From positions 1 to 40,085 of the forward strand of contig NZ_SMAR01000034.1 of assembly GCF_004342225.1 (NCBI RefSeq): DNA of 40,085 bases. Reading direction: 5' to 3'. The notes beneath the pieces are model-generated. The model saw only the letters and a program-made list of their open reading frames with translations, did not search any database and had not been told where the DNA came from. Position 1 is the stretch's first letter. Every line of letters begins with the position of its first letter. A program made the translations under genes and the position numbers. This document shows positions 24,194 through 27,306 of the stretch, piece by piece. The stretch is from Martelella mediterranea. GTDB taxonomy: Bacteria > Pseudomonadota > Alphaproteobacteria > Rhizobiales > Rhizobiaceae.

Positions 24194-24347
24194 GGGACGC
24201 ATATCCAGATTGTTTCATTTATCTGGTGTGTTCATCGCATAATCAGGCCTTAACCGGCAATTCTGCGTTCGCTGAACACTGCGTCACCCCGCACGCGGAA
24301 CTTTACAGCATCGTGCTTTGTACATCCGAATGGATGCACGGCGCTCT

Positions 24348-24581
24348 CTAACGACGGGTTTTGCGGCGTGCGGACGGTAAAAGACCTTCGCGCTGAAGCT
24401 GCTTCTTGCGCTGTTTACGCAGACGACGGACGGCTTCGCCTGCTTCGCGGTTGCGGCGTTCAGACGGTTTCTCATAGGCGCGACGCGCGCGCATCTCACG
24501 GAACATGCCCTCGCGCTGCATCTTTTTCTTCAAAGCGCGCAGTGCCTGGTCGACATTGTTATCTCTGACAACAACCTGCAT
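24348..24581 (-). CDS. rpsU: 30S ribosomal protein S21
   Basis: 77-aa, highly basic small-subunit protein that sits near the 3' end of 16S rRNA and aids initiation. The opening [20 protein letters not shown] is the standard S21 signature, and the second half is the usual R/K-rich helix. AAGGAGG precedes the ATG. Upstream on the same strand lie a compact hairpin and a strong terminator belonging to a candidate structured RNA. No convincing promoter is visible between that terminator and the gene, which raises the question of read-through control. Confidence 0.96.
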
Positions 24582-24652: not shown

Positions 24653-24677
24653 AAAAAAGGCCGGGGCATCCCCGGCC
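24653..24677 (-). terminator. Strong intrinsic terminator upstream of rpsU
   Basis: Stem GGCCGGGG (24659-24666) / CCCCGGCC (24670-24677) with a three-base loop, followed on the minus strand by six Ts (24658-24653). It ends the candidate structured RNA and not a protein gene. Confidence 0.8.
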
Positions 24678-24822
24678 TCATCCTGTGCCGCTGCCAGTAC
24701 ATCCGTGGTCAGCGACAGCGAATCCCTTTGACATATGGGCCTGACGCGGAATTTCCGTCTTGTTCGCCAAACTGCCAGTACATCCGTGGTCAGCCGGAAA
24801 CGAACTTTAATCAGGCCATATG
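24653..24822 (-). ncRNA. Candidate structured RNA (sRNA or rpsU leader) with duplicated hairpin
   Basis: This occupies most of the rpsU-proximal part of a 557-base gene-free stretch (24582-25138). Read on the minus strand: a long-range 12-bp stem, CATATGGCCTGA (24822-24811) with TCAGGCCCATATG (24744-24732), encloses a first hairpin motif at 24794-24772. An identical 23-nt copy follows at 24713-24691. A GC-rich 8-bp terminator hairpin with six Ts ends it (24677-24653). Each copy folds as CTG-(A)-CCA / TGG-CAG with the loop CGGATGTAC. I do not recognise the family. The 5' end is unknown; 24822 is the outer stem. The rest of the stretch (24831-25087) shows no gene. Confidence 0.55.
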
Positions 24823-25087
24823 CTTATCCGCATACGGCATCCGCCAAACGTCAGTCGAAAGACGATTTTCGCTGCAAATCGAGGCTGAAATGATTGCAGA
24901 AGCAATCGCGTTATCAGAAACGGCCTGAGAGCGAAAACGGTGCAATAGAATATGGATCGGATGAGCCAATCCAAAACCGCATCAAACGGCCAAGGCACCT
25001 TTATAGTGGCGGACTACCCGAGGATTTATAAACGAAGGGCAATTCGCAATGACTGTGATATAGGCTTTCACTTATCGAAATACAAGC

Positions 25088-25138: not shown

Positions 25139-27103
25139 CTATGTCTGAAGGGCTGCAAGCCCCTTATAGAATTCCAAAGCCTCCGGATTCGAGAGCGCTT
25201 CCCTGTTCTTCACTGGCCGCTCATGCACGACCTCGCGAACGGCCAGCTCCACGATCTTGCCGGATTTGGTGCGTGGAATATCCGTGACCGCGATGATCTT
25301 TGCCGGTACGTGCCGGGGTGACGCACCAGTGCGAATTTGGGTTCTGATTGCCTTTTCGAGTGCGCCATCAAGCACAATGCCCTCAGCCAACCGGACAAAG
25401 AGCACGACACGCACATCATCGTCCCAGTCCTGTCCGATGCAGATGGCTTCCAGCACCTCCGGCATCTGCTCAACCTGATTGTATATTTCCGCTGTCCCGA
25501 TCCGTACACCTCCGGGGTTCAGGGTCGCATCGGAACGGCCATGAATGATCAGGCCGCCATGTTCGGTCCACTCAGCAAAATCGCCATGGCACCAGACATT
25601 TTCAAACTCAGAGAAGTAAGCGGCCCGGTATTTGGCGTTATCAGCGTCGTTCCAGAAACCGACGGGCATATTGGGGAACGGCTTTGTGCAAACCAGTTCT
25701 CCCTTTGACTGCCGAACAGGATTTCCGTGCTCATCCCAGACATCGACCGCCAGTCCGAGACCCGGCCCCTGTATCTCGCCCTTCCAGACCGGCTTGACCG
25801 GAATGCCGAGCACGAAACAGGACACGATATCAGTTCCTCCGGAAATGGATGCCAGCTGAACATCTGACTTGATTTCCTCGTAGACGAAAGAAAAACCCTC
25901 CGGCGACAACGGCGATCCGGTGGAGGTCATCAGCCGCAGGCCGGACAAATCATGCTGCTTTGCCGGGTGATATTCTGCCTTTCGCACAGCATCAATATAC
26001 TTTGCCGAGGTTCCGAAAACGGCAAAACGCTCCTTTTCGGCATATTGAAAAAGCACATCCGGACCGGGCGCAAAGGGTGAGCCATCATAAAGGCAAAGCG
26101 TTACGCCGCTGGCCAGGCCGCTGGCCAGCCAGTTCCACATCATCCAGCCACACGTCGTGAAATAGAAGAGGCGCTCTCCGGCTTTCAGCGAGCAGTGGAG
26201 CTGATGCTCTTTCAGGTGCTGCAGCAGCACTCCGCCGGCGGAATGGACGATGCATTTCGGTATGCCGGTCGTGCCGGACGAAAACAGAATGTAAAGCGGA
26301 TGCGCGAATGGAAGACGCTGATAGGTCAGCTCTGCCGGAGAAAAAGGCGCCAGAAATGCCTCGAATGTAACCCCGTTTTTCACAGAACCGGCAACGGCGC
26401 CACTGTCACCGGCCAGCGGAACAACGACGGTCGGTGCCTCAAGTTCAGCCGCGATCTGCCGCACCTTTTCGCCGACATCCTGAACTTTGCCATTATACCA
26501 GTACCCGTCACAGCAGAAGAACAGCTTCGGACCGATCTGGCCGAACCGGTCCAGCACACCGTTCACGCCGAAATCCGGAGAACACGACGAAAACACGGCA
26601 CCCACAGACGATGCAGCCAGCATGATTGCAATTGTTTCCGGCATATTCGGCATCATCGCCGCGACCCTGTCACCGGACTGAACACCTTGAGCAAGCATCG
26701 CCTGTTGCAGCCGTGAGACTGTTTCCTTCAGCTGCTGCCAGCTCCAGCGTGCGGCGAACCGGTCTTCCGCTCTGAAGATGATGGCATCATCGTCAGGCTT
26801 CAGAGCGGCGCCGTGTTCCAGCAGGTTTTCCGCAAAATTCAGCTTCGCGTCAGGAAAAAATCGGGCCGCCAGCATGTCATCGCCATGGATCAGAATGCGC
26901 GCTCCTTTTTCACCTTTGACCTGACAAAAATCCCACAGAGCCGACCAGAACTCAGCACTTTCATCAACAGACCACTGATGAAAGTTGTCATAGTTTTCGA
27001 AAGTGATCCGGAAGCGCTCAGCACAGAACTGCATGAACCGGGTCACCGGAGCATCGGCAATTCTGCAGTGATCCGGCTGCCAAAGCGGCTTGTTTTCGCT
27101 CAT
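25139..27103 (-). CDS. acsA: Acetoacetyl-CoA synthetase (acetoacetate-CoA ligase)
   Basis: Activates acetoacetate with ATP and CoA, letting the cell use ketone bodies or recycle PHB breakdown products. About 654 aa, the standard length for this family and distinct from acetyl-CoA synthetase. The opening (LWQPD...[11 protein letters not shown]) with [17 protein letters not shown] is typical. The AMP-binding core [18 protein letters not shown] is present near residue 270, and the C-terminal domain ends with the catalytic lysine region [24 protein letters not shown] lies just upstream of the ATG at 27103; the frame extends to 27172 without support. The symbol acsA is used in Sinorhizobium; aacS is a synonym. 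Confidence 0.93.
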
Positions 27104-27306
27104 CGTCTCCTCCCAGGCGCAATTAGCAAAAGTCAGATTTCTATAACGTCTCCCGCTGACAAATGAAATCAATCAAACGTCGTGTACGCACGATCAGACA
27201 GGGTTTGCAGAGGGTGAAAGAGGTGAAAGAATTGCAACACCCCTCATTTTGGTCTATCCGCGCAGCAGGGGAGCGATTTGAAACCAACTGATTGAAACGA
27301 CGCTCA

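Follow-up and report, generated by a model that had tools for sequence, protein, structure and literature searches.

A tandem GGAUGUA hairpin before rpsU in Martelella mediterranea and its likeness to the 3'-UTRs of cold-shock genes

The GGAUGUA hairpin and the Martelella locus

A cspA-rpsU cold-shock operon was reportedly described in Sinorhizobium meliloti by O'Connell and Thomashow in 2000. Rhizobia also carry RFMSmelB053, an RNA with a GGAUGUA loop described in 2011 together with related 3'-UTRs, 29/33 of them at cold-shock genes, for which Hfq-dependent action or the interception of degradation complexes was suggested (Reinkensmeier et al., PMC3927594). Members of its Rfam family, ar35 (RF02346), have a variable or missing first stem-loop (PMC3927594). 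SmelB053 has been equated with smrB35 in a 2020 review, according to which no recognisable CsrA is encoded by rhizobia (PMC7143759), and in S. meliloti smrB35 is expressed and is a candidate for a trans-encoded sRNA (PMC7143759, PMC2873474). The available account of SmelB053-related elements does not name rpsU (PMC3927594), whereas the element described here precedes this gene. In the literature searched by loop letters and names, with subscription papers mostly beyond reach, no partner of the GGAUGUA hairpin is named. Within that same literature, what is new is that the hairpin occurs in tandem, that it stands in front of rpsU and that cspA appears to have been lost repeatedly while the element stayed.

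The window, that is, the whole stretch of 40,085 nt that was analysed, is contig C34 of the 4.30-Mb M. mediterranea genome (G000). Its element lies on the minus strand in a gap of 557 bases between the acetoacetate-CoA ligase gene and rpsU, which is free of genes as the initial annotation had stated (Table 1). The same annotation had claimed two exact 23-nt copies of a hairpin, the first enclosed by a 12-bp long-range stem, and a strong terminator. All three were found: the copies are identical and form the longest direct repeat within 24860-24645, the stem contains one bulged base, and the terminator folds with a z of -4.07 (0/200 shuffles equally good). Both 23-mers can fold into a CUG/CCA - UGG/CAG stem with the bulged A that was claimed, but the minimum-energy fold has one extra G-C pair, bulges a C and leaves GAUGUA open.

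Table 1. Features of the element and its neighbours, in window coordinates (R1, covariance model described in the text)
Feature	Position	Strand	Evidence or remark
Hairpin 1 (23-mer, tip of long-range stem)	24772-24794	-	R1 match 24805-24750
Hairpin 2 (23-mer, terminator-proximal copy)	24691-24713	-	Outer stem about 24686-24716; R1 match 24724-24654
Long-range stem, 5' arm	24811-24822	-	Counterpart GGCTTGA in sister genomes is the last cspA codons and stop
Long-range stem, 3' arm	24732-24744	-	Sequence repeat/fold and ortholog folds
Intrinsic terminator	24679-24657, T run to 24653	-	Terminator scan and fold
Promoter-like site TTGTAT-17-TATATC	25057-25085	-	Resembles TTGCAA-17-TATATC before sister cspA
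rpsU (ribosomal protein S21), downstream gene	24348-24581	-	Pfam PF01165 and TIGR00030
Acetoacetate-CoA ligase gene, upstream	25139-27172	-	TIGR01217, 1030 bits

The initial annotation knew no named family with this layout, a statement that did not hold, since RFMSmelB053, smrB35, ar35 and the related cold-shock 3'-UTRs have this very loop. The ar35 model matches the window at 24784-24650 of the minus strand with 32.9 bits, below its gathering score of 45. In this alignment the conserved GGAUGUA hairpin is present letter for letter, and the element shares with ar35 the hairpin UUGACCaCGGAUGUACuGGCaC, the Rho-independent terminator and the intergenic position, while the first stem-loop of the model, which falls inside the match, aligns poorly and a second copy of the hairpin is found instead. 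The described cspA 3'-UTR elements, which stand directly after cold-shock genes, likewise have a GGAUGUA hairpin followed by an intrinsic terminator (PMC3927594); the window element differs from them by its tandem hairpins, its long-range stem and the missing cspA frame. Both these RNAs of rhizobia (SmelB053/smrB35; Rfam ar35) and the cold-shock 3'-UTRs published in 2011 are marked by the hairpin GACCACGGAUGUACUGG.

Elsewhere in the window, the sole Rfam match above gathering score is the bacterial small SRP RNA (RF00169; 13345-13441, plus strand, 62.2 bits). Right after the rpsU stop, GTGCATCCATTCGGATGTAC (24320-24339, minus strand) forms a hairpin with the loop letters CGGATGTAC inside its stem, which may be chance.

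Covariation and distribution of the hairpin

The 186-nt fold of the element is more stable than its shuffled versions (z -3.95, 0/200 equally good), an edge that comes mainly from the long stem with hairpin 1 (z -4.16, 0/200) and from the terminator. Taken singly, the short hairpins reach z -2.60 (4/200 shuffles) and z -1.39 (20/200); they are clear of chance because they are conserved elsewhere, and not by fold energy alone. We aligned 59 elements from outside the genus (alignment A2; 62 of 97 passed the terminator pattern, and L082, L134 and L160 were omitted by hand) and found 92.1% of cells paired versus 86.7% in shuffled alignments, 67 cells with double-sided changes versus 29.9, and a covariation score of 0.215 versus 0.130, values that none of 500 shuffles reached. 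Shifting the partner lowered pairing to 25-54%. About half of the elements lack two pairs of the outer stem (columns 12/35 and 13/34), so that internal loops are frequent at this place. Of 180 instances, 144 have T-A and 32 have C-G immediately flanking the core, with 179 paired versus 151.5 expected. This pattern of substitutions indicates that the structure is under selection.

A covariance model, R1, was built from A2, with the genus excluded and with E-values that are rough. R1 detected the second and third stem-loops of the SmelB053 type, in sequence and structure, at hairpin 2 plus terminator (62.9 bits, E 2.3e-17, a rough value) and at hairpin 1 (32.4 bits), the latter without a terminator of its own, scoring at the top of the background and assigned by its exact core. 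Matches were obtained in 13/13 genomes of the genus; those that score less than about 32 bits form this background and probably represent ordinary terminators. A covariance search, a kind of check proposed in the initial annotation, recovers the window element, with double changes in the stems of the 59 elements of A2, and the suggestion in that annotation of a structured RNA, either an independent sRNA or a conserved leader, gains support from covariation and orthologs alike.

In its own genome the 22-mer occurs three times with up to three mismatches, twice in the window and once on contig C36, where the match to ar35 reaches 48.2 bits. This third copy (L003) lies after a cspA and before a gene for a small FKP protein, which in sister genomes follows rpsU; these neighbours suggest a rearranged ancestral locus. 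With up to two mismatches, GACCACGGATGTACTGG is present in 167/199 genomes of the family, and its reversed control also gave some matches, mostly 0-2 per genome and once 5. At up to one mismatch the motif was found in 77/297 genomes of the order, a sample that includes genomes of the family, versus 4/297 for the reversed control. Exact matches in named genomes comprise at least 119 stretches, among those listed Rhizobium, Mesorhizobium, Brucella/Ochrobactrum, Aureimonas, Bosea and others; a few of these (a Rhodospirillum bin, for example) could be chance matches. The same scan revealed another tandem, in L182, which by this source is outside the genus of the window: its hairpins, at 1059 and 1126, are spaced by 67 nt and follow a csp frame.

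Gene contexts were counted for 177 exact instances, in loci gathered mostly by the motif itself. In 97 a cold-shock frame on the same strand ends no more than 400 nt upstream, in 154 a T run follows the core within 93 nt, and in 31 an S21 gene lies within 1.5 kb, 26 of which also have a csp gene before; in 80 of 179 instances a csp stop is at most 60 nt away. Sorting by tail sequence divided 181 rows into 101 csp, 48 ar35-like, 9 with a GCGGG terminator, two other groups of 5 each and 13 others, where all csp counts are lower bounds because the residue pattern that gives the label misses some cold-shock frames (L058 ends in cold-shock sequence yet is unlabelled). In five genomes the exact hairpin follows the stop by 18-26 nt in 7/17 single-domain csp genes, with a decayed hairpin in 1/17 and none in 9/17, and no hairpin was found after any of the five two-domain cold-shock proteins of the same genomes, so that not every csp gene is marked by a hairpin.

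Other contexts were also observed. Downstream starts of the GCGGG group match Mem_trans (AEC transporters) in 3/4 tested, and in L030, L097 and L181 the motif hairpin and a terminator lie upstream of AEC-family transporters; the AEC transporter of the window itself (PF03547, 7080-8024) has no motif match nearby. Loci with the GGTTCGAA tail carry a gene for a small HLF(T/S)IGQ protein next in 4/6 cases as judged by eye, the start of which has no Pfam or NCBIfam match. Genome G441 contains five near-identical repeats (L291-L295), perhaps a mobile element, in which the hairpin with the GGATGAAC loop is the terminator stem (GCCCCGC...GCGGGG followed by a T run).

Sister genomes and the missing cspA frame

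In nine sister genomes (G001, G002, G005, G006, G008, G009, G010, G011 and G012) the order is cspA, double hairpin, rpsU, and the double hairpin begins 16-19 nt past the cspA stop. These sisters share the cspA-then-rpsU order with the operon reported for S. meliloti and have the element between the two genes, whereas the window has no cspA and the acetoacetate-CoA ligase gene occupies the position beside the element. The link of SmelB053-type elements to cold-shock genes, usual but not universal in the published set, is found in nine orthologs and is missing in the window, where no csp frame lies within 400 nt upstream and none of the three frames before the element has cold-shock residues. 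The clpB gene is on the same strand at 25-28 kb in six of the nine sisters and at 20 kb in the window. When orthologs were folded one by one, 9/10 formed the long stem GGCYUGA/UCARGCC or a shorter form, L019 using another register, and the column pair 18/97 is C-G in the window, U-A in seven orthologs and U-G in one. A formal count on a ten-row MAFFT alignment, which we relied on for hairpins 1 and 2 only, paired just 47.5% and 83.3% of the cells of the long stem because a gap set by the aligner split the 3' arm.

The cspA frame is missing both in the window and in G003 (L011), and both keep the two hairpins, the stem and the terminator, with a cspA-like promoter box upstream. No cold-shock reading frame was found before the element of G003, which retains letters of the cspA promoter and 5'-UTR and an end resembling AADDLISA-stop. 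In a tree of a single gene, clpB, in which the window row has an unusual base composition, G003 groups with G006, G001 and G005 (100/99), all of which have cspA, and the window genome falls outside; because G003 nests within a group with full support whose other members keep cspA, the losses look independent, and two separate losses appear to be the simplest account. G004 and G007 present cspA with only a decayed hairpin, GGCCACGGATTTATTGG, and the element is therefore dispensable there. Taken together, the comparison shows an element of the GGAUGUA-hairpin type (SmelB053/cspA-3'-UTR) that is tandem in the genus, with its first hairpin at the end of a long stem and an intrinsic terminator behind, and that two lineages appear to have kept after losing cspA.

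Promoter-like sites were scored with weights of our own. The best one in the gap of the window (Table 1) scores 11.0, and TTGCAA or TTGCAT-17-TATATC/G is the best site in 6/7 sisters tested, with scores of 13-15; in G003, TTGTAA-17-TATATC is the second-best site. A promoter box, GCCTATATCAC.GTCAT, is common to the window and to cspA promoters. A generic sigma-70 scan gave no promoter-like site in the gap of the window. The whole upstream region of the window does not align beyond chance to most cspA upstream regions. What aligns is the promoter box alone, in two of nine local alignments (L005 and L009), which beat all shuffles (0/200 each); for the remaining seven, shuffles were as good in 4 to 165 of 200.

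Candidate functions of the orphaned element

We give about an even chance, roughly 0.5, to a combined reading in which the element is an orphaned cspA 3'-UTR or intercistronic RNA with hairpins that serve as docking sites for a putative trans-acting factor. The identity and origin of the element are very likely correct, and the docking or decoy mechanism is more tentative, with the balance slightly against it. According to this proposal, the stretch would descend from a cspA-rpsU cold-shock operon, as its 3'-UTR or intercistronic part, and the cspA frame of this ancestor would have been lost. Transcription would probably start from the retained cspA-type promoter near 25060 and yield an RNA of roughly 400 nt, mostly ending near 24653 and in part possibly reading through into rpsU. 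The unchanging hairpin would dock a conserved factor, a protein likelier than an RNA. Loop letters wobble at one position only (U or A) and all other stem and loop letters are fixed, with an outer stem that covaries, a pattern that looks more like a protein site than a pairing seed. The orphan may then compete with cspA mRNAs for the factor, as a decoy or a sensor, and may set the amount of rpsU.

A wider reading, possible with the odds clearly against it, takes the hairpin as the operator of a dedicated RNA-binding protein whose regulon, controlled after transcription, would extend over Hyphomicrobiales and include cspA copies induced by cold, free sRNAs, AEC transporters and small leader-controlled genes. 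The window would then hold a free two-site decoy of this protein, made from a cspA mRNA minus its frame.

We consider it unlikely that the element acts as an independent sRNA like ar35/smrB35, pairing through its loops, GGAUGUAC, with target mRNAs in their start regions with the help of Hfq. The sub-threshold ar35 match, the expression of smrB35 as an sRNA candidate in S. meliloti and the terminator with its T run would fit such an RNA, and tandem loops would double its dose; against this, the stem letters are nearly unchanging too, beyond the need of a seed, the loops GGAUGUAC and GGAUGAAC are both in use, and most copies with a recognisable neighbour are in cspA 3'-UTRs. Nor do complements to the loop in the cspA 5'-UTR and coding sequence of nine loci exceed chance level (longest 4-6 nt, equalled by 88 to 200 of 200 shuffles), and pairing of the loop with its own cspA mRNA was rejected on that count.

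Also improbable is a regulated terminator or leader of rpsU, in which the hairpins and terminator would set read-through from the upstream promoter and Csp may antiterminate. About 72 nt separate the terminator from rpsU in the window, an interval that has no strong promoter-like site (best score 8.2), the order cspA-element-rpsU is frequent (the 26/177 exact instances above), and CspA homologs have been described as antiterminators (PMC3557214). However, 146/177 instances have no S21 gene after the hairpin, so that regulating rpsU cannot be what it does in general, and in G003 the gap has a promoter score of 10.0.

A simple stabiliser of the 3' end, or a relic of a terminator, acting without any partner in trans, would explain the strong terminator and the T run that follows most cores, but would not need 17 letters unchanged across a family of 100-odd genera, nor a core that stayed exact while cspA frames vanished, and we regard it as very unlikely. 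Still less probable is kissing of the two loops through GUAC, raised in the initial annotation since this tetramer is self-complementary and carried by both: the window RNA itself could kiss, but most elements have a single hairpin, and GGAUGAAC, which is unable to self-pair there, occurs in the same contexts, namely a cspA 3'-UTR (L299), one of the two hairpins of G005 (L013/L247), an ar35-like RNA (L296) and two others (L297, L298), so that kissing is not needed. The proposed titration of CsrA/RsmA, suggested by the GGA in the loop, a partial consensus match and a layout of repeated GGA hairpins able to titrate a protein as in the CsrB/RsmZ decoys (a possible way of working, though the window has other loop and stem letters and just two hairpins), was rejected because the search for csrA, a check advised at the time, detected no CsrA (PF02599) in the own genome or the 12 others of the genus (0/13) and only one among 41 relatives in all, in line with the review cited above (PMC7143759).

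In conclusion, two lineages without the cspA frame and with its tail amount to a natural experiment, and the retention of the tail after the loss of the frame suggests that it is worth keeping without its protein. This renders a motif described in 2011 open to a direct test of function with a simple bait RNA.
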